From NCBI RefSeq assembly GCF_000003815.2, contig NC_049981.1, forward strand, positions 13,041,304-13,105,303: DNA of 64,000 bases, read 5' to 3'. Origin of the DNA: Branchiostoma floridae (lineage: Eukaryota > Chordata > Leptocardii > Amphioxiformes > Branchiostomatidae). The translations under genes and the position numbers were made by a program. A model generated the notes under the pieces. The model worked only from the letters and a program-made list of their open reading frames with translations, was not told where the DNA came from and ran no database searches. Shown here piece by piece: positions 1,773 through 61,507 of the stretch; within the stretch, counting starts at the first letter, position 1, and each line of letters opens with the position of its first letter.

Positions 1773-2750
1773 CACATGGCGGTACAGTCGAAGTGAACCA
1801 TCATCCACTTGCTGGGGTTGAAGGCGAAGGAGTGCGCCAGCTCGATCCCCTTCATCAGATAGCGGTACTCGGGACAGATGAACGCCGTCCCCGCGTAGGC
1901 AGCGTCAATGTGCAGCCAGATGTTCTCACTGTCACCTGAAAGATAATCATTCTTAGTGTCTTCATCTCTATTTCTTTGTCTGCTACTGCATACTCAATTT
2001 ATGATAATAATTTAACACTTCTTGGTGGGTGTCATTGTGCAGATGTTGGCACGTTGACTCACCAAATCCTCAGTGTGATTTTTGGCACACAACTAGACAA
2101 ATTACCCAATAAAGGCTCCATAGGCTCAATCGTAAATGAAAGTCGTGAAAAGTGTGCCCTTTCCCAGGGACACAACGACGGGGCATGGTGGGATTGAACT
2201 CGGGACCTCTTGATTCCGAGCCCAACGCGCTACCAGTTACGCCATACAAATGCATACCCAGCTTGGACCAGTGTAGCTTGCTGTTGGAGCCTCCTAGTGC
2301 TTGTCCTTTATACTGCAGCAGAATTTCATGTTTTTCTACACTCCTTTAAGGAACTGCTATGTTCGCATTACGACTTTGCTGATGGAGTCAGACATGTAGT
2401 AAAATACATTCTGTTGGTACAGGTAACGTTTTACAATGCACTACTCTGATGACATTGTACGAAATGCCTTTAGAATGCATTGTGAAAATCTGTACTCACA
2501 TATGGGACCGATCTCTTCCAGACTGTCAAAGGTACACGCTCCTGTGGAGCCCAGTGTCGCACACACCTAAAAATCCATAGACCACCATTGTTAGTATCAA
2601 TATGTGGTATGCAGTATGCATAGAAGTCCGGGCTAAACTAGCTTTAATACTATGAACGTATTTTGATAGCATGTTATGTCATTGTTAAGTTGCATTTCTG
2701 CCGATTTACACTTAAACTTTTAACACACACACACGCACACACACACACGT

Positions 2751-2791
<41 letters not shown>

Positions 2792-5638
2792 TACACAAAA
2801 CGCATTCATACGTACAGAGAGTAAGAAAAAGAGACACCGAGTCAGAAAGAGAGATAGATAGAGGCGGAGGGATACAGAACGACATGGGTGCAAAGGTATG
2901 TAGTTGAAGACCCTTGAGAATTAACAGATGCAATTCAAAGATCCTTACAAAGAAGGGGATGAGTCCCTCCTGTCTGTCCTGATCTATAGCCTTCTGCAGG
3001 TCAGCACCTCTCATCCGGCCCTTCTCGTCCGTGTCCAGCTGACGCAGCTTGACCAGAGCAACCACACAGTTCTTCTGGACTTGGGAATGGGCCTGAAACA
3101 AGGACAATGATAGTGCATGTCCACATGTGCAGGGATTGCTTGTCAGGATGTCTGTTTTTGTTTAAACAGCTAAAGGTGACTTATCATGATGAATGCCATT
3201 AAATCTTGAAACGATTTGATCTTTGATGGTCTCCTAGCAGTTATTGGGTGTGTGTTTTTAAATATGAATTCTTTTGAAGTAGGTGTGCTACGGACGATCA
3301 TAGATGGCTTTACAGATGCAGATACATAACCCAGTTTACATATTATCCACGAAGGAATACACGGCTCCTTACTTGGTCAGAACAGTACGCCACCAGTCGG
3401 CCCGTGATGTCACTTTCCTCTGCATCCGGGACCTGTTCTTTGAGCTTGCGCACTGCTTCTGCACGAGCCGCCAGCATGGACACCAGCGTGCTTTCACTTA
3501 CGGTCCCCTAACAAACAAACAAATACTAGAAGATAAACAATTTGTTTTTATGTTGAATACGGAAGAAAACCTGATGAATAGAGTTAAGTTCATGTGCTTT
3601 ATTTTGCAGACTTTTACGGACATTTACCTGAATAACTCCTCCGCCTTTTCCATCCGACAGGGAGTAAAGGAACTGTGGTGGGAGACCGATCATCTTGCCT
3701 AAGGGAATAAATAGTACCTTACGTTCAAATGTATATGTGCTATCAGGTATGTAAGTATGGCTATTTCTTAGCTATTTGATCTTGAAAGCTGTTCACAACG
3801 ACTGCTTGAACGCAAGGTAGTATCGTTGTTCATACCAACGACCAGAATTATGGACTATGTTTAATATATATAGTTGTTACGAAAAGAAAACGGTTATAAA
3901 CATGTAGATTTTATGTAGGATTAAAAGGGAGTGACAATGCTTGGTTTCGGCGTCCAGCTACCAATTTCACACGATGTAGAAGAACATCACATGATCACAG
4001 GAGCAAATATTGAGAACATTGCACGCACCCAACCAGTCCATGACTATCATCTCCAGCTCCGTACAGGCAGGGCTGGAGGCCTGGATGTTGGAAATACAAT
4101 CGTGAAGTCTTTTAAAAAAACTTGAAGTCTCCCCTCCCCCCTCCTATATGGTGCACAGGGCGGAACCCATCTGCGTGTCTATATCCCTTGGGCCACAACG
4201 TTGTGCAAGCACTGATAATACGATAACTGCGGACAAGCTAAGTATCAATAAAAGTCGCGTCTGCCACACGTTTGACTTAACACATGACCCTAAGTATCTA
4301 CATCCGTGCACTTTTCAATTCGTTGCTGACGTCACATATCGTAAGATCTCACTTGTCCAAAGCGTGTATTCACTCACAATCTTAAACTTGAAGAAAGCTG
4401 TAGTATGCATTTTCAAGTCAGCCGAAACTGTGGGTATATTTTTGTGTGTGTCAGAACAAAGTTTAAGCCCCTAAATCTCTCCAAAAGGAAGAGATTTAAT
4501 GTGCCTCTGAATCAGAGTAGAACTGTATGATAAACGTTGAACCATAACTTGCTTTTTTGTATCTTTAGATGTTTGGAAGAAAGATGGTCAACGTTCGCTC
4601 AACGTAGACATTTCTATAGAATATGTTTGCGTAAAGACGCCAAGTATACAAGTCTATGAGACATGATGACACTATCTTTCTATACAGCGTCGTTTGGGAC
4701 ATACTGTCCTGAATATATCCATATAAACATCAGCTAGATTCTACGCAGAGCGTTTCAGGGCTTTTCAAATCCATGTCACATATCTTCAAAAGCGTGAATC
4801 GTATCTAGTGAATTCATTGTGGCCATGAAAAATGCATGGATGAATATAAACCGTGGATGCCCAAAGGTGTTTGTGACATGGCCGTACATGAAAAGATTCC
4901 CCATGTTGCGTTCATCCGCAGATTGAATAGCTGAGGGACACTGTTAACTCACCCAGGTGAAGCCGATACAACCTATTGCATCAGCCAGCATGTCTCCCAG
5001 CAGAGACGGTCCGCTGTTCAGGGCAGGGTAGTAGGCATGCATGTGTGGGCTCTGCCAATGCACAACCTAATGCAAACAGTACAACCTCTAGGTAGTGTTA
5101 TTATAATACTTATTTATAGTAAATGAGGCAAGGACTATAGATGTGTTTTTATCCCTCAGGGAATGACCTGGCATAAACATACAAACATTGTTCGCGGTAC
5201 TGAACTATGTGTAAGCCCAAACTGTGACAGTATATTTAGTAGATCACGCATATCAATGTTAGTACTTTTACTTTTAGGCACATATGTATGTACTTTTTTG
5301 ATAGCTATTCTATTTAAACTTAGCAATCATTTTGCTATCAATCAATTTGTCATGTTGGTAAAAGGTATATTGAATTTATCGTATAGATCCAACAATGAGA
5401 TTATTGAGTTCAAATGTTTCTGAGCACCACAAATTCAAAATGTTTGAAAAAAAAACGTTACAAACTCCAGGCATGATGACCCTCTCTACGTCATCAAAGA
5501 TGTCTTCCCATGATTCCCCGTCCATGGGGGCGCTGTCCGGGACCAGGCTGCGCATGTACCCCGGCTGTACATCCGGGTACACTCTGCGGGTGTGAACAGT
5601 CTGCAAGTAGTCCGCGATGTAGTCCACCATCTCTTTGG
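1773..5638 (-). CDS. hdc: histidine decarboxylase-like PLP enzyme (partial, 8 exons)
   Basis: Group II PLP-dependent decarboxylase; family members turn histidine into histamine (HDC) or make dopamine/serotonin (DDC). Exons in transcription order: 5638-5466, 5066-4953, 4080-4029, 3698-3628, 3507-3373, 3092-2949, 2566-2500, 1935-1773. All join in frame with AG/GT borders, giving about 306 aa. Visible motifs: [11 protein letters not shown] near the start, [27 protein letters not shown], the cofactor-stacking His in [10 protein letters not shown], the PLP-binding Asp in HIDAAYAG, and the Schiff-base Lys in [13 protein letters not shown]. The stretches [23 protein letters not shown] and [12 protein letters not shown] are closer to vertebrate HDC than to DDC as I know them. 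Missing: a short N-terminal exon with the start codon, and the C-terminal third including the substrate-specificity residue. The gene is therefore HDC by similarity; DDC-like specificity cannot be excluded. The donor after MPG is the weak GTTTGT, but the reading frame requires it. Confidence 0.88.
2110..2253 (-). mobile_element. tRNA-derived SINE in a decarboxylase intron
   Basis: On the minus strand there is a tRNA-like head with box A (TGGCGTAACTGGTAGCGCG) and box B (GGTCCCGAGTTCAATCCC). A body starting GTTGTGTCCCTGGGAAAGG follows. Similar box-B-plus-tail elements lie at 11125-11255 and 25000-25175. The 3' boundary is uncertain. Confidence 0.75.
2722..2800. repeat. (CA)n microsatellite
   Basis: A CA dinucleotide run with a few CG interruptions, inside a decarboxylase intron. 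Confidence 0.95.
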
Positions 5639-16165: not shown

Positions 16166-16615
16166 GGTCAACATGCCTGTCCTTTGTGCTGAACACAATC
16201 CCCACATAGTGAACATGCATGTACTTAGTGCTGAATGGGAGGGTCCACACGCACTGAACAAGCCTGTCCTTGGTGCTGACCACTATCCACACACAGTAAA
16301 CAAGCCTGTCCTTGGTGCTGAACACTATCCCCACACAGTAAACAAGCCTGTCCTTGGTGCTGAACACTATCCACACACAGTTAATAAGCCTGTCCTTGGT
16401 GCTGAACACTATCCCCACACAGTGGACAAGCCTGTCCTTGGTGCTGAACACACTCCACACACAGGGGACAAGCCTGTCCTTCGTGCAGAACACCATCCAC
16501 ACACAGGTACTGAGCACTATCCACACACAGTAGACAAGCGTTGCCTTGCTGCTGAACACATTCATACTCAATGGATGTCCCTGATGATTAAAGATATGCA
16601 CACTCAGATGAATGT
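16166..16615. repeat. minisatellite, 42-bp unit, ~10 copies
   Basis: The unit is CCTGTCCTTGGTGCTGAACA followed by CTATCCACACACAGTAAACAAG, with copies starting 42 bp apart (16263, 16305, 16347 and so on). Because 42 is a multiple of three, the array stays open on both strands (16173-16676 plus, 16149-16712 minus). Those ORFs are products of the repeat, not genes. Confidence 0.95.
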
Positions 16616-43181: not shown

Positions 43182-45677
43182 TTCTATTCAAATTACAGTG
43201 GAATGAAACGGATCAACTATCGCGAAAAATAACAGGAAAGCAAGTCTATGAAACCATGAGTCACTAATAAGGGAAGTGGTGCAAGTCTACGTAAGTCACG
43301 ACTTCCGGACTGGTGTTCCAGGCTGATTCAGTGCTGATGGCCAAAACGTAGTCCATGGGCCATGTCCCCAACAAAATTGGGTAACGTTACAGGTTTTCCA
43401 GTGCTGAGCTTGAATTCCATGGAAATTAAAAAAATCAACTTATACACGCCTTTATTATTGTAATTCAGTACACCACCGTCACTACTCAGCACGTAAAGAA
43501 ATACGTAGTACAAAATTATGAAACACCTGCAAAGGATCTGTTCCACCTGACTAAACTTACATTGTTTTGATGGGTATCTCAAGGTTACGAGACGCAGTGT
43601 TTCAAGGCGACATGTTTATCTTGTTATGACAGTGACTCTTGGCTAAGAACTGAGCGAGGCCGGTGACCAGCGTCCCCATTTGAACCCCTTTGTCACCGGT
43701 CCTAAGTAAGGAGACATCGTCACCATTTTAAAAGCGACGACCTACTGTTCAGAATGCATCCATGTGAAACAGGACTAGGGCTTTCGGAGAAATAGGTGCA
43801 ATTCAGTTTACTCTGGCTGTTGAAATATTTGGCCTTGGGGCTAATTCCAGGACTCGACAACTGTAAGCAGTAAACTGTTATCGTTAGCTCCTTCCAAAAA
43901 CACATCTTATTTTGACGTCGTCTTTGAATAGACAAATGTATTTTTGTTTCCCACGTTTCTAACCGTTTAGAGGGAGCTTGATTTAAAAACAGGTCACTGA
44001 ACACATTGTCACTTAAGGTCACAATGTGTCGGTCTGTACATTCCGAGTGCCATTCCTACGTCTTATACGTTCTTATATCTGCCAAGATCCTCCAAATAAC
44101 ATCCGATTGCAAACTTAAATACTCACATGAAGTGAATACAGCACAGACAGCGCCTCTTTGATATCAGTAAGTAGCCACTAGGTAAATACTGAACTAAATC
44201 TAGAGAATGTTTTCTTTGAACAGTGCAATGATAGACAGCACCTAGACAGAACATGACTGGAAAAACGTCTTACTTTGAGTCGAGTAGTGTTGTTTATCAA
44301 TGTCAAGTCTTTTGTAGATACGTAAAGACAGGAGACAAATACTGATCGGTCGCCCGAGACTTGTCTGGTGATCTTTAACTCATCGAGTGGACAAAAATAT
44401 CCACGGAAAACCTGTTTAGCAACATGATTATCTTTTACGGGTCAAGGGTCAATCTCTAAAGTGTGGGAGTGAGGGTATTATGGGTTAACCTTGGGAAGAG
44501 GACAACGTCCGTGGGCGGGGCTTATACTGAGTGTTGGAGGGTATGGATCGAGGTTGACTTTATACTATCGGACATAGATAAGATACATGTGAGTTAATCT
44601 ACTGTTGAGATTTTGGTTTTAATGTCACTGATGATAATAATGATAACTGTTCTCACGGTGATTATAGGCTAAGCTGTTGGAGAACCCAAAATACTAACAC
44701 TTGCATGCTGACTCGAAGGGCTGCATGCGCTATGGCTTTCACAACAAAACCGCTAGGAGACGCTGTAAGCTTTACGTCCGCCTGTCAAAAGCCATGAAAA
44801 TCCATCCGCTCATGACATTCTTCTGAAGCCTGTTTACCTACAAACACATGAACTTCAGAAAAAGACAGTATCCTTCGTGGAATACAACAACTTTGCTTTA
44901 ATAACTTTTTTGTCTCACAACAGACACCAGTGTAGTGAGAAATATGATACTTCCAGATTATGGCAGAGCACGCTTGAATAGAAAGAAATTGGGATGTATC
45001 AGGCCATATGAACAAGTCAGAAAAAACTCCTTGCAAAAGCTTTAAAAATGCACCCGCCCCATGTGCGTCATCAAAAATAGATAACACTGTAAATGGTACG
45101 TAAATAATAAGATTTTACTTTACAGCGTTGTTCCTTCCTAAGACGTTGCCTGAATATGAAAATGTAGGTCAATGACTTAGAATATGTGTTATTATATAGC
45201 ATAAACCAACTAAATTAGAATTCAAAATTGATAACATTAACACCTATATGGACATGTAATACACTATATACATGTGAATAGTACGTTCTGAATAACCATA
45301 TAGCGTGAAACAGGACATAAGATATAATAAACTTATACATATACATTTGTCGTTCATGATGTACATCTATATGGTATATACATTTACATGTATATGTACA
45401 TATACATATACATACGCAGTATAAAGTGTAAAAAGAAGCTTCTTTGTCACAAATATACAATACAAATTCCATTATGAGATAGAAATACTTGATTATATCA
45501 TACATATAACTACGTATGCCATTGACGTGCTGAGTCATTTCTGTTTGTATTACAATAATTGCTTTCTTTAAAATCGCGTTTACACATGTTATTGACGTAA
45601 CATATATAGCTCAACCAGACAATCACTTTTTAGAATGTTGAGAACATTGTACCCGTACAGAAGCGCTTCCTAGCGGC
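43182..45677. other. SLCO-2 5' flank; no gene recognised
   Basis: A 2.5-kb spacer with no recognisable exon. The part next to 43182 should hold the SLCO-2 promoter and 5' UTR. Confidence 0.45.
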
Positions 45678-46465
45678 TTATGTGCTAATAACAGCGATCT
45701 CCGCAGTTGACTCCATCCTTGTGAGCGTGGTCTGTGTCATCGTCTTGACCATGCCTACAGAAGGTGGCGGCGTGTAGGACATGTACGCTGCCATAAACAG
45801 GATACATGCTACCGTCTTCACGGATAACATCAAGGCGAGAAGGCTGTACCCCATGTGCTGGTTGTCATACTGTAGACACGAGCCCGTCTCACCACACGAC
45901 TCCCCCCACAACACGCAGGAGCTGTCCAAGATCGCTCCCAGGATCACCGGCCCGGGGATTGATCCTGAAAGTTTAAAAAAAAAAACACAACAACAGACAT
46001 GAGCATGATACAACTGACTGAACATCAACGTGACAAGCTCTAAATGTCTATAGATATTACTGCTTGTGTGTAGCCATGAGTCAACTATCAATGTTCCCCC
46101 AAGCCGTCTACAACTTTGTACCAGAGCCAAACTACTGCAGTTACCTAAGTATCACATGAGAACATTTCTCATTCATTGTCTCTTCCCTCCTCTCTGCGTA
46201 TACGTGTGTATATGTGTGTGTGTGCATTTGTTTGTGTGTGAGCGTGCGTGTGAGTTTGTGTGTGTATATTGTGTTTTCGTGATTATTATCAACAGGTTTT
46301 GACTAAAGCATGTATTCACCACTGTATAGTGAATTACATTGATCAAAACATTCCCACGTGTCCTGTAATGACCTCTGTAAATCTGACTGAAAGTTCGTAC
46401 CTATGAGTCTCCCAAATATGTTTTGCACCCCAAGAGAGAACCCCTGCTGGTTATAAGGGACGCAC
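45678..46465 (-). CDS. extra SLCO terminal exon pair (alternative C-terminus or remnant)
   Basis: Two exons, 46465-46401 (65 nt) and 45964-45678 (287 nt with stop), are homologous to the last two coding exons of the SLCO genes. They read CVPYNQQGFSLGVQNIFGRL and GSIPGPVILGAILDSSCVLW, continuing to a final TM segment and MSYTPPP. Both have AG acceptors, the first has a GT donor, and both lack stops or frameshifts. The 65-nt exon starts with one base that completes an AG-ending codon, so it fits exactly after SLCO-3 exon 49794-49622. No other SLCO exon is visible between 46465 and 47931, so this is not a whole gene. The tail motif PPP-MVK-TQ-L is shared with the SLCO-3 tail, but the C-terminus ends I-S-T. 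If used, SLCO-3 would become 713 aa. It could instead be a leftover of an incomplete duplication, although intact frames argue against long neglect. Confidence 0.8.
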
Positions 46466-46625
46466 CTGAAATACAATACAAGGAACAACTATGATTATGG
46501 ACAACATTTGCAAGGTACGTTTGCAAACACATAATGTTTACCTTCACATGGTGTAGCTCAACAAAGTATATCTGTTTATTCTTATTCAAACACATTAATG
46601 TATATTCTGAACTGCAAATCCAGCA

Positions 46626-46700
46626 TTGTCCTGCCACTTACTAGTACTACCTTATGTAACCAAATACCACAGGGTGCCTGTCACCAGTAACCATGGGGAC
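46626..46700. repeat. dispersed repeat, second copy at 24010-24100
   Basis: GTCCTGCCACTTACTAGTAC, followed by an ACCACAGGGTGCCTGTCACC stretch, matches the 24.0-kb copy in the same order. It lies between the two SLCO-3 terminal exon sets. Confidence 0.55.
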
Positions 46701-47686
46701 AGCCAGGTCATTGACCTTATTTGCTTGGAGAAAAAGAGGAAAAAAGCAAAAACAATATAGGTGAAATATACTACTTAATATACTATTCAATATACTACTT
46801 ATTAGTTTTATTTGCTCACTTCTTATAATTTATGGCTAGTTTTAATGTACGCTGGAGGTGTCGGCCTTGTAAAGGATGTACTATCCTGTTGCCTACACCT
46901 CTCAGATTGATGAATGAAATATTAAATCGGAGGGGACAAGGCTGTAGACAGAAGACGAAATACGTACAAGATGGATTAAAGAAGGCATTTAAATGGGTGG
47001 GGACAATGTCTCAGGCTATATGTGACTATAGACGGAAATGATTCTGGGACCCAGTCTTCTTCTTCACCTTCTTGATACATCATTTCAAGATGCTCTTTAA
47101 TTTTTAGACAAAATAGCACAAAATAATTTGCATCTTATTGTATAACTCAACCTACTAACGCAGTAGAATTTGCTTTGCAAAGGTGATTCCACAAAAAGAT
47201 AACATCTAAAGAACAAGATAAGATAACAGAATGCAAATTTCCACTTTATTGAATTCTATTTTGTGACAATTATATATGATTAATAACTTAGACACAAAAT
47301 GACATACATGTTGTATATCATATTTTCTTGTCCCCCTAGTTTGATGATATGCTATCATAGTTTGTAGACGGCATCTTATGGGGATTTCTTTATCTCTGTA
47401 GTTACCGGAACATCTTAACAAATTACTACCATTAAAATATGCACAAAATGCCATTGAGGCAGCTTGATCAGTTATAACATATAGCTATAACAGTTATAAC
47501 TTGATTATATACTCCCGTCGTATCACCAAGTTGAACACTACACTATGTACACTGCATATACTCATATTGATTGTGGCAGCACTATATATATATATATGCT
47601 TTATGTTTTATAAAGAAATGAACAACTTCATATATCATACAATATACAGTAGGTACTTTTCTTATCTAAACATTACATTATATACA

Positions 47687-47692
47687 TTTATT
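47687..47692 (-). other. candidate poly(A) signal of SLCO-3
   Basis: Minus-strand AATAAA about 240 nt past the SLCO-3 stop codon and before the extra terminal exon pair. Such a position would let the gene end at the proximal last exon. In AT-rich DNA the hexamer alone is weak evidence. Confidence 0.4.
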
Positions 47693-47930
47693 TCACAGGG
47701 ACTAATAGCATTATACAGGCTTCTTACCGAATACAGTTCAAATTTTTTCATGTTGTCGATATTGCAGACATATTTATTACATGTAATTGCGGTCCAATCC
47801 AAATTGTTAACCATTTTTTTCTATTTCAATGGCAGTGTACACGCCTGTGGATTATTTCAACCCTTTTGCAAATTTGTAGGCCTCACAAGGATTTCCTTAC
47901 TTTTAGTATACCAGAATTAACGTTAACGGT

Positions 47931-50900
47931 TCAGAGTTCAGTGCTTTCTATATCCATGCCCTTATTGCTTACTCCGTTCGACCCTGGAACAGTAACAGTG
48001 GCTAGCTCGTCCGCATGTTGCAAGGAGGCCTGAGTCGTACTTTTAACCATTTCCCCTTGCGGCGGGGGTTTGTATGACAGGTAGGCAAATGAGTAGAACA
48101 GGAAAGCCAGGACCTTCCCGGCGACAGTGAGGTACAGGAGAGAGCGAGCCATCGCGGCGTTGTCATAGAACCAGCACGCACCACGCCCATCACACTTCTC
48201 CTGCCACACCAGGCATGTGTCGTCTATGAATCTGCCGAAGAGAATCGGCCCAGGAATGGTCCCTGTGTTTTGGACGAAAAGTGGAACTACATTTAGTCAA
48301 CATGTAACTGTCGTGTAAAGAGGTTCGCACGGTTCTAAGTGCGCATACACATGGTTAAAGGTGAAGACCCTGACTTCTGAACAGTTCTTGTCTCGAAAAT
48401 GTTTTATACATGTCCAGACTAGATCGGTCGATTCGTTGTTCTAAAGAATTAACAGAAAAGAAAGACGAAACGCATCGCAAAACAAGATGTTCTAATAAAC
48501 ACGATAGATTGATAGATAATAGAGCTAGCATTTTTTTCAATAAGGGTTAGTTTCTAGTTGTTACATTTCTCTGCCAATGTCTATAGCCTATCAACGTTTT
48601 CTTTGGTCATTTTGAAATAATTTCAAACAAAAAGAAGGATTTTCAATTTTTTTTAGTCGTTATCAACAATATGACATGCACGCACCGATACATCTAACGA
48701 AGATCCACTGTACGCCGAGCGCGAACGACCTCTGGCTGTCGGGAACAGTCCTGCAGAACAAAATAAATCGGTGAGAGGAAGACAAGACGATGTGTGTATC
48801 ACTATTGTGTGTTTGTGTGTTGTTTGGCGTTTGTATTGACATAAACGCGCAAAAACTGTCAATGGTCTTTCAACAATGGACATTCGTACGACTCATACAC
48901 TAATGCCGCACGAATGTCCCAATTTGTGGGCACGACATATGAGATTGGCTCTTAGGGCATGCAGATTTCATGATATATATATATGTACAATTATTTCTTA
49001 CAACGTTGTCGCAATTGCAATTTCTACGTATACAATGTAAACGATGACTTACCGAGTGTTGGATTTGAAAAATTCATTGTTCGATTATTGTTTCTCATAA
49101 TCGTTGATTGAGTAATCATGGAGACAGGATCACACAGTCAATCAGATAGAGTCTGGAACAAGTCAACAAGCGAGCGAGCGAGCGAAAAATATGGCAGCTG
49201 CTGTAGAGGCTTGCGCAGAAGTATCAGAGTTAGCATATTATAGGTAAAGCTATTTAACATTCAGTCGCAAGGAGCTTTGATGTTAAATGCTTATAGAATG
49301 GATGAATAAAATCATGAACAATATATATTTCATCACACTTTGTTTGCAAACAAACATGTGGTACTATTCGCCATGGCCGTGCCCCTGGATTTACTTTATC
49401 CGGAGTTAAAATCAACCTGGGACCCGGTAACAAATAGTCGCCGTAAAATAAATCGTGAAAACACCGAGATGTACCCCCGCGGTATCCGTGAGTCTATTGG
49501 AGCACATCTGTGTCTTCAGCGCCTGGTAGGGGCTACATCCCCATTTGGGCATCGTTGGAAATGGAACCGTAGCATCAGTGACAACAATGACAACACAGAC
49601 ACGACTAAGACCCCGCCCTACCTGAGCGTGGCTCCCGTGGCCAGGGGGTTGTTAGCGAACGTTAGCAGCATGATGGCGAAGAACATGGCCAGGAACACCG
49701 GCATGGTGCTGCAGGTCGATTCGCACTTCCCCTGAATGGTGTCTGCCAGGCTGGCCACAGAATCGTAGAAAATGCACGTGCAGTTGTGGTAGCGCTAGAA
49801 ACAGTAGGAAACAAGCAATTAGAGATGACAGGATCCCCCCCTCCTTCCCCCCTGTGCTTTGCGATGATCCTTGCGACGAAATATCATCACTGATGATATA
49901 TGACAACGTTTCTACGAATAACATAAGAGAACACACACCTTAGCACACATACCGCACGCACACATACACACCCTGAAGCGTCGCCAAAAAAAAACATACC
50001 TTTGTTCCGTCTGTGTCCGTCAAGACAGTACAGCCTGCATGACAAGGCGAGAAGTACTGCATGCCGTCCGCCCCACAGGTGGGTGTGTAGTACTCCTCCT
50101 GGCAGGTACAGTCAGTATTGCATTGACTGGTAAGGTTGAGCCCGGACACTATTGGGTCCACTGAGCTGGGGTGACGGGAAACAAGAATGTATCAAACCAA
50201 GACGGGGGACGACACCGACTTGCAATCAATTAGTCACGTGATCTGACCAATCAGATCATCGGTTATCCTAAAGAAAATCAGTGGGATATATTTTGTCGTG
50301 TTTGAAAATAGATCAATTATCCTTTCAAAAAGTTGTGAAGCTGAGGTGAATGGAAGATCGTAAGATAAAAGTTTTATTAGTTTGGACTACAAAATTGAGT
50401 CAAGTTGAAGACTGTTATGTTATTGTATTTGCCATACCTGTTGGTGTACCGCTGTGTGACTCCGGCAAACGGGATGTTTGGACACTGCACAAGGAACACC
50501 AGGTACAGCGCCAGGCAGACCCCGCCCAGGATGATACACAGCCTCAGCATGCCCCTGCACTTCAGCTTCATGAACTTCATGATGACTCCGCCCAGAATGT
50601 TTCCCCCAGCGGCGCCCGGAACCACGACAAACCCTACCAGAAACACAAAATACGAAGTACATACCCAGTGGTCCCTTACTCAAGCTGGAGCTGATACTAC
50701 AGTATCAATGATTACTTCAGTTCATCGAATAGCTTCATCAGGATTCTCAGTCATTTGAAAGTAACGTTTTTGTTCAGTTTGTCGACTGCCTTCACCAGGG
50801 CGTAATAAGTAACCTGTGCCACTCCTTGCCGCTTGGTGGCGCTGTTGCACCAGGGTGTGCCAAACATGACTGTGTTTGTATCTCCATCGTAAGAGTATAT

Positions 50901-59135: not shown

Positions 59136-60078
59136 CCATGAGCGTTATGAGTTATGTAACGTTATGTCACGTGTATAATTCACGTGTTTCATGGCAGATT
59201 GGATAGATACGTGGGTATGTAGTCTGTGTAACACAAACTCTGCTGTCCAGCGCTGTAACTGGCCCCTTCCTGGAAGGATGTTAGGCAGGTTGCTATATGC
59301 GAGATTTAATCAGGCTACATATTACTAGTAGGTAGGCAGGTGAATCGATTGGTAGATTTATTGATTGATGGGTGGATCGATCATAACCATCATTGTATCA
59401 TATTTACTTAATAGAGAGACAAAAAGATAGATGTTTACGCTTATTTTAAGACTGAAAGAAAGGTTAAATCCTCATTGAGTGCTTCGCGCTCCTCCTAACA
59501 AAGCACTGGGCGTATCTGCATAAATGTTACATTTTTCAACCTCCTTGAGACAAGCTAATCTTTTTTATCAATAATTATCTTAGTCGTGACTTACGAGGTC
59601 GATTGCTGTTCTCATATTTGGTAGTTGGAAGTTATTCCAAGTGCACGTCTGGGGTCGCTTTGCGTGTTTTATCATTTGGTTGAACGCGTTCAAAACGTCG
59701 AAAAATACACCCTTGCCTGAAAAGCCTTCGAAAATTAACGGGTTTTGTCATTCATAATGCTTGGTTCAGTGGGTGTGTTTCGGCAATTCCAAATTTGTTG
59801 TTCGGCTGATAAAACCACATTGAGTTTAACCAAGTCAATTGTTTCGGCTGATAAAACCACATTGGCTGAGAATATATGTTACATTTTAGTACCATTGCAA
59901 TTATTAATAGCGTATAATTCCCGGTCAAAACCCTGAAAAATGAACAAATAAAAACATCGTTGACGAATGGAATTTATGTAACATTGAATTTGAACGAAAT
60001 CGATGTAGCTGTAAAACATATGTGTGCGAGAAAGTGATAAGGAAGTAAAACCCATTAAGATTTGGGAAGAAAAAAAAT
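59136..60078. other. no gene recognised
   Basis: AT-rich. A 21-bp sequence, TCGGCTGATAAAACCACATT plus G, occurs twice about 45 bp apart near 59803 and 59848. Otherwise nothing is identifiable. Confidence 0.45.
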
Positions 60079-60151
60079 CGAGCTTGCCAGGATTCGAACC
60101 TGGAATCTTCTGATCCGTAGTCAGACGCGTTATCCGTTGCGCCACAAGCCC
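60079..60151 (-). tRNA. tRNA-Arg(ACG)
   Basis: The minus strand folds as a full cloverleaf of 73 nt. The acceptor GGGCTTG pairs with CAAGCTC. The D arm contains box A (TGGCGCAACGGATAACGCG). The anticodon stem TCTGA/TCAGA encloses the loop CTACGGA, giving anticodon ACG. The T arm contains box B (GGTTCGAATCC). There is no intron and no encoded CCA, as expected for a eukaryotic nuclear gene. The body is nearly identical to vertebrate tRNA-Arg(ACG) as I know it, so it is probably functional rather than a SINE head. A minus-strand poly-T (plus-strand poly-A, about 60070-60077) directly follows and would serve as the Pol III terminator. Confidence 0.95.
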
Positions 60152-61507
60152 GGATGTGACGTAGCGATGGCATTTTAGTGTCTATATACTTTTTTAAGAT
60201 GAGGACAATCCTTCAGACCGTTTTTGGATGATGTGTTTTGAATTTACTTATAACTTGGATGATTACTTATTACTTGGATGCTTTAATCTGTACTCCTATC
60301 TCTTTCAAGAAGACATTTCAAGAGCGCAAGACCATACTGCTAAAAGCGCCACCTGTTAGTTGTCTAAGAAACTGCATAATAGTGCTTCAGGTATACGGTC
60401 GTAGTAACGTTTAATATTGCAGTAAAATCGAAAGGGCCTCGAAAGGCTTGTATATCTACACTAGTAAGTCTGCTATCCTGACCATATATAACAGCACCTT
60501 CGACCAGCTCTCAATTGGCATAGTGTTAATCGGGGTTGTTGTTGTCTCTGACCGCTTGATCGAGGTGAAGTTCCCTGGGAACGCGACAGTCGGCTGCGCT
60601 GAAAACTCCCAGCTTTGGAACCTTGTCAGTATTAAACCGAAAGATGAAGAATTTGATTATTACTGTCGACAATTCCTAAGGTAGACGGGATAATCAAAGT
60701 CAGGGTGATCGCTGTTATCCTCCTGATGTGGGGTTACTTACTAGTATTTTGAAAAAGTACAGACAGTGCCATAGATTACAATGGTGACCGGCAAAGCCAA
60801 CAATGAATGGGTTATTCTAATAAGAACAGTTAGGCCATAACGGTATATAGTAAGCAACGTTAGAATTTATGGATGACATCCGCGCGCTCATTAACTTTCG
60901 CCTTAGTTCAGAAAAAAAAAAATGAGTGTATTTGCCAGCATGAGGTTCAAGTAAAGTGATACAAGTCTACAACACTAGTGTCACTTTTACTTGAATACAG
61001 GAATGAATATCTCGTTGGTTCTGATGCCATATTTCGTCACTTCAATCCTTGTTAACGTTACAACGTTTGTGGTGTCTATTTTTTAGATTTTGTTTTGTTT
61101 TTTTACCTGTCTTGTTTTTTCCACCCTTTCTCATCATTTTTCCAGTCTGAAGTGGACGTCATAAAATTTACTTGCTGTGGCCTTACGAAATACAACCTAC
61201 TACTAGTAAGCTTTTTGGGTTCGGTTTCTTTCCTCTGAGAAGCAGTGAAAGACGAAGTATCCTATTTTTATTCTAATGGGTGGAAGTTGTAAGGTTAATA
61301 GGGTTGTAGTTTTCCTTTCGTCAGAAATTATTTCTGATATAGAAAAAAACATGTCATTCGTTATATAAAGAATTGCAGCAATGGTTTTTTGTCAAACAAC
61401 AGAACTTCCGTACTTGCTACTTGCATCTTGGCAAACATTATGTAAATAATGATATTATTTCAATGTATGATCAATGAGATACATACAACAGGGGTGCCTA
61501 AGCATGT
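60152..61507. other. no confirmed gene
   Basis: A 78-codon open frame at 60448-60684 (plus), without an ATG, has a hydrophobic stretch (LSIGIVLIGVVVV) and then a glycosylation site (NAT). It could be an exon, but it matches nothing I know. A fragment of the 16987-17822 element lies near 60862-60890. Confidence 0.35.

Follow-up and report, generated by a model that had tools for sequence, protein, structure and literature searches.

A second pair of terminal exons behind the amphioxus OATP gene SLCO-3 as a candidate alternative C-terminus

Can a single transporter gene end in two different ways? This question is raised by a stretch of 64,000 nt of Branchiostoma floridae DNA, called here the window, that lies on contig C3 of the genome searched in this work (G000; 513 Mb in 431 contigs). 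The minus strand of the window carries three tandem genes of the OATP family, in the order SLCO-3, SLCO-2, and SLCO-1, and SLCO-3 is followed by an additional pair of exons that resembles its own last two coding exons. A sequence-only reading of the window had proposed that this pair might provide an alternative C-terminus. We have named the exons of the proximal ending A1 and A2 and those of the spare ending B1 and B2, and the two pairs are referred to as A and B. All the coordinates are positions in the window, and the features lie on the minus strand unless stated otherwise. According to the analysis presented below, B1-B2 is probably a second functional terminal exon set of SLCO-3 that would encode an alternative C-terminus, a reading to which we assign a probability of about 0.68.

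Anatomy and coding content of the two endings

The SLCO-3 gene begins with a first exon at about 54058. Its exon 10 (49794-49622) encodes the end of the Kazal loop and the transmembrane helix 10 (TM10), has homologous exons in SLCO-1 and SLCO-2, and is followed by a 5' splice site (49621) that would be the shared donor of both endings. The proximal ending is formed by the penultimate exon A1 (48750-48686; 65 nt), where TM11 starts, and by the last coding exon A2 (48262-47931), which encodes the rest of TM11, the last extracellular loop, TM12, and a tail that finishes in STEL before the stop codon. The spare ending is formed by the penultimate exon B1 (46465-46401; 65 nt) and by the last coding exon B2 (45964-45678), whose tail finishes in VIST before the stop codon. 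The B1-B2 pair sits between exon A2 and the start of SLCO-2, whose first coding exon is found near 43.1 kb. The spacing from A to B is 2.3 kb, and the gap between A2 and B1 measures 1.46 kb.

From exon 2 onward, all the tabulated boundaries of SLCO-3 and of B are GT-AG, the phases of the A and B pairs match, and the frame is kept in the four combinations A1A2, B1B2, A1B2, and B1A2 (4/4). The junction of exon 10 with B1 would read GATLRCVP, and the RCVP motif is also present in SLCO-1 and SLCO-2. The exon coordinates, the 65-nt size, the phases, and the splice sites reported by the sequence-only reading were all correct, and its central observation, a second intact copy of the last two coding exons of SLCO-3, has been confirmed by the open frame of B1-B2 and its match to the OATP profile of Pfam (PF03137).

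This profile recognizes A with an E value of 1.1e-26 and B with an E value of 2e-21, both above the curated cut-off. Moreover, both endings match solved OATP structures; B matches OATP2A1 in the PDB with an E value of 1.8e-12, and among the solved structures OATP2A1 also comes closest to the SLCO-3 body (E 5.3e-71). A chance similarity of B to OATPs is ruled out by the Pfam, PDB, and genome matches. Aligned to OATP1B1, A and B run from TM11 through the last extracellular loop and TM12 to the tail. The earlier description of the exchanged region counted one transmembrane region where the exon pairs encode two helices, TM11 and TM12. In the last extracellular loop, A and B keep the cysteines and the D..C / YD signature (columns 36, 39, 53, 61, 64, and 65). 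The STEL end of the A tail corresponds to a class I PDZ pattern; tails ending in [ST]-x-[VLI] were found in 9 of 27 cases, A included, and the VIST end of B does not fit.

In both A and B, residue 20 aligns with the TM11 arginine R580 of OATP1B1. R580 is reported to pair with E74, the R580A change lowered transport and R580Q abolished or strongly lowered it (PMC10709409, PMC8602229), and TM11 is assigned to the charged side of the cavity (PMC10709409).

The splice sites of B are strong. The acceptors of A1 (11.67 bits, leave-one-out) and B1 (11.12 bits) are about equally strong, which makes a regulated choice between them plausible; the acceptor of A2 is weak (-0.41 bits, leave-one-out). As a yardstick we have used 23 cluster sites, i.e., those of the 10 SLCO-3 introns and of 13 of the 16 modelled introns of SLCO-1 and SLCO-2, three low scorers having been dropped. 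The B1 acceptor scores above 22 of these 23 sites, the B1 donor above 19, and the B2 acceptor above 16, with the caveat that the retained donor of SLCO-1 exon 2 may be wrong and that the exon 6 junctions are unmodelled in SLCO-1 and SLCO-2.

Age, origin, and maintenance of the spare ending

SLCO-1 and SLCO-2 follow the exon plan of SLCO-3, including the 65-nt penultimate exon, and their junctions into and out of this exon score well when the SLCO-3 phases are imposed. Thus, the size and phase of the exon are marks of the family and not signs of recent copying. A single terminal exon pair was found by tblastn for each of these two genes in the window and its 100-kb flanks. A recent duplication is ruled out by the sequences of A and B themselves, whose amino-acid identity is 47% over 91 codons and whose synonymous divergence (dS) is saturated. 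The identity between A and SLCO-1 amounts to 53%, so that A and B are no closer to each other than A is to SLCO-1.

The origin of B is better indicated by the fast-changing tails. Comparing the tails of at least 10 residues (27 of the 29 aligned rows), the tails of A and B each have the other as best match, with z values of 10.2 and 11.5, and the next-highest z for any tail of A, B, SLCO-1, or SLCO-2 is 3.6. This reciprocity implies that B most likely derives from the 3' end of SLCO-3 itself, and we consider an old tandem duplication of this end the most likely origin of B1-B2. The comparison suggests a sister relationship of A and B. Trees of the core region give B no supported position: in the set of 27 rows that results from removing the two rows with short frames (L042 and L049) from the 29, the position of B is without support, and the clade A+B is not rejected by the approximately unbiased (AU) test (p 0.515), with a log-likelihood 0.41 above that of the free tree. 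A small tree with outgroups did not provide a supported placement of B either. In addition, the search of the genome for last exons yielded 38 matches (scored candidates only), of which 30 could be given loci, and among the matches listed with positions A and B are the only last-exon pair on the same strand that lies less than 7 kb apart.

Several features argue that B has been under selection after its origin. The G+C content at third codon positions (GC3) is 0.69 in B and 0.64 in A. The non-coding flanks have a total G+C of 0.34 between A2 and B1, 0.39 within the intron of B, and 0.30 downstream of B2; tested against 0.39, the GC3 of B gives a P value of 3.6e-11. Of 21 family-conserved positions, defined as columns shared by at least 75% of the other 27 rows, B keeps 19, A 20, SLCO-1 21, and SLCO-2 19, and all eight fully invariant columns as well as the TM11 arginine are retained in B. 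A branch codon model run on 10 of the 29 rows (87 codons) estimated the ratio of nonsynonymous to synonymous rates (omega) of B at 0.22-0.24, and an omega of 1 was rejected for four placements of B (p 0.0023-0.0066). Purifying selection was also detected for A (p 0.0009). Judging from GC3, the splice sites, the conserved residues, and omega, B appears to have been maintained up to the recent past.

Other OATP loci of the genome show further arrangements of terminal exons. On contig C13, the loci L038 and L045 (at about 7.54 and 7.55 Mb) carry terminal pairs 11 kb apart that encode nearly identical proteins, suggesting a recent gene duplication. Contig C17 contains an OATP cluster at 3.52-3.72 Mb, whose ten last-exon matches are distributed over both strands. 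In locus L042 (~1495-1665), no intron separates the penultimate OATP exon from the last one, and the frame ends shortly past the YD signature.

Possible use of the spare ending and neighbouring features

If B is functional, to which 5' part does it belong? A tblastn search with SLCO-3 peptides (E 0.05), which covered the window and its 100-kb flanks, detected the three OATP genes and no fourth one. The search with the first-exon peptide returned the three known first exons, the remaining matches having E values of 0.43 or worse; one weak first-exon match of 9 residues (43678-43652) is located downstream of B2. Profiles of exons 2-5 and 7-10 of SLCO-1 to SLCO-3, exon 6 not being included, were scanned together with a terminal-exon profile over five non-coding stretches in search of relic exons, with nothing better than E 0.98, and within the A2-B1 stretch the relic-exon profiles gave nothing better than E 6; the scanned stretch downstream of B2 was likewise free of relics. 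An assembly gap hiding a gene is ruled out, since there are no runs of N between 28148 and 72075. With no further OATP 5' part detected in the vicinity, splicing from exon 10 is the simplest use of B.

Exon 10 would be spliced from its donor at 49621 to A1, the transcript being cleaved past A2, or alternatively to B1, the transcript being cleaved past B2. The gene would in this way yield two OATPs with common TM1-TM10 and Kazal loop but with different TM11 and TM12 helices, a different final extracellular loop, and a different cytoplasmic tail. The alternative C-terminus postulated by the sequence-only reading remains the best reading, as it agrees with selection, splice sites, and conserved residues; both junctions would then be used, their use may differ between tissues, and the swap may alter transport or sorting. 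The more specific proposal that splicing alters the substrate range or transport mode of SLCO-3, swapping TM11 and TM12 together with the sorting tail to give two specificities and two membrane addresses, is tentative and, in our opinion, rather doubtful.

The poly(A) signals do not help to decide. The presence of AATAAA between the two exon sets had been taken as fitting the use of alternative last exons, but this argument was not sustained, because five such hexamers were observed where 2.28 are expected (P 0.079). Two of them, with first bases at 47778 and 47692 (47687-47778), are found past the A2 stop and are candidate proximal signals, although the number of hexamers between the sets is not significantly above chance, and the others begin at 47250, 46812, and 46580. 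Past the B2 stop, the first hexamer of a common type is a weak ATTAAA (44897-44902) located 776 nt on, and there are weaker variants at 45568 (AAGAAA), 45551 (AATACA), and 45119 (AGTAAA). With a count that fits chance and signals that are weak on both sides, we have dropped the poly(A) signals as proof of alternative ends.

Some results weigh against the use of B as a second ending of SLCO-3. No AATAAA is present in the 1000 nt downstream of B2. In the core tree with 29 rows, B groups weakly with genes of the contigs C13 and C17, and A pairs weakly with SLCO-1. A four-taxon selection test was marginal, with p values of about 0.04, 0.06, and 0.08 over three topologies, calculated from the likelihoods, and neutrality was likewise not rejected for one control branch, L025 (p 0.24), the power of the test being limited. 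Finally, a gene that had recently lost its 5' exons would look identical.

The last point leads to the most serious rival explanation, which we consider unlikely: B would be the 3' remnant of a complete tandem duplicate of SLCO-3, the first exons of which disappeared in one recent deletion; it would have been under selection while it belonged to that duplicate and would be idle now. The OATP genes are arranged in tandem here, which makes whole-gene duplication a local habit, a clear poly(A) hexamer is lacking for B2, and the selection signal, being an average over the whole B branch, cannot date its last part; yet no relic of exons 2-5 or 7-10 was found in the gap of 1.46 kb that separates A2 from B1, and the GC3 of B shows no drift to the AT-rich surroundings. 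The loss would also have to be recent according to simulations of neutral decay, in which B stayed intact in 40%, 23%, and 13% of the runs at 0.05 substitutions/site (for 0, 0.05, and 0.1 indels per substitution, respectively) and in 18%, 5%, and 2% of the runs at 0.1 substitutions/site (for the same indel rates). Thus, B could have idled for about 0.05 substitutions/site or somewhat longer without a visible break, and a recent loss of function is possible.

It is improbable that B is transcribed in another manner, for example in A1-B2 hybrids, by readthrough, or from its own upstream promoter to give a short two-helix protein. The A1-B2 and B1-A2 combinations are in frame, and the B2 frame is open upstream of the B2 acceptor (46151-45678), but B1 has kept a strong acceptor, its donor, and its frame, not all of which these uses need. 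An assembly artefact, such as a misplaced or collapsed gene copy, could be imagined in a tandem gene cluster, but it is very improbable given the lack of N runs, the single genome match of a 251-bp query from the A1 region, and a divergence of A and B that is too high for alleles.

Concerning a possible regulation of the choice between A1 and B1 as acceptors of exon 10, the hexamer TGCATG, an RBFOX-type motif, is found at 48675-48680, at intron position +6 after A1, and a second one is found at 48963, upstream of A1. These two A1-flanking copies are 2 of the 12 on the minus strand of the window and constitute a post hoc lead only. A scan of inverted repeats for competing RNA structures gave four pairs, none of them convincing, and the comparison of the non-coding sequences of intron 10 and the stretch ahead of B1 gave a single 11-nt match (E 0.24).

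Elsewhere in the window, an open stretch on the minus strand (2712-3161) includes an exon that matches the pyridoxal-dependent decarboxylases of Pfam (PF00282, E 7.6e-9), and the low end of the window is therefore predicted to carry a decarboxylase-type gene or gene piece. A tandem array at 16170-16506 consists of 8 copies of a 42-bp unit and is open on both strands (open reading frames of 169 and 188 aa); its minus-strand frame, the one scanned, has no Pfam match. A tRNA-Arg with anticodon ACG is located at 60078-60152 on the minus strand.

Known terminal-exon switches and significance for the OATP family

The closest precedent within the family is human OATP3A1. Its variant V3 is described as sharing the first nine exons with V1 and then using alternative 10th exons, so that only residues 666-697 differ, and the isoforms are described as differing in membrane localization, with a PDZ-binding motif in V1 only (PMC9479004). 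SLCO-3 resembles this case in belonging to the same protein family and in having a C-terminus that would be switched by the last exons, with A ending in STEL and B lacking the PDZ pattern. Unlike V3, in which the change is described for the C-terminal end only, the amphioxus gene would exchange a homologous exon pair that covers TM11, the loop, TM12, and the tail.

Final exon pairs that are duplicated and alternatively spliced have been described for GNAO of vertebrates and, in B. floridae as well as B. belcheri, for preGNAS (PMC5896119). The A and B pairs are similar to them in being tandem and homologous, on the same strand and in the same phases, with intact frames and splice sites. The differences are that preGNAS encodes a G protein and SLCO-3 a transporter, and that the preGNAS pairs are reported to share 80-81% protein identity as compared with 47% for A and B. 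In Drosophila, duplicated 3' exons or variable 3' regions with mutually exclusive choice are reported for pip and PGRP-LC (PMC9013439). Unlike SLCO-3, these are arrays in other families, and PGRP-LC is stated there to use competing RNA structures (PMC9013439).

A literature search covering titles and the starts of abstracts among the matches listed, with few subscription journals represented, found no swap of OATP endings in amphioxus and no TM11-TM12 swap in any OATP. The assertion that no such cassette is described for this family holds within that search for the exchange of TM11-TM12, but not for alternative last exons in general, which are known from OATP3A1_V3 (PMC9479004). The general mechanism is already known, and its exact form in the OATP family may be new.

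The special point of SLCO-3 is that a cavity-lining helix would be exchanged. If both ends are used, the gene would represent a natural domain swap between OATPs that are identical through TM10, providing a direct handle on the role of the segment from TM11 to the tail in substrate choice and sorting. In that case, a transporter would also join the genes with duplicated terminal exon pairs, of which the preGNAS example likewise comes from amphioxus.

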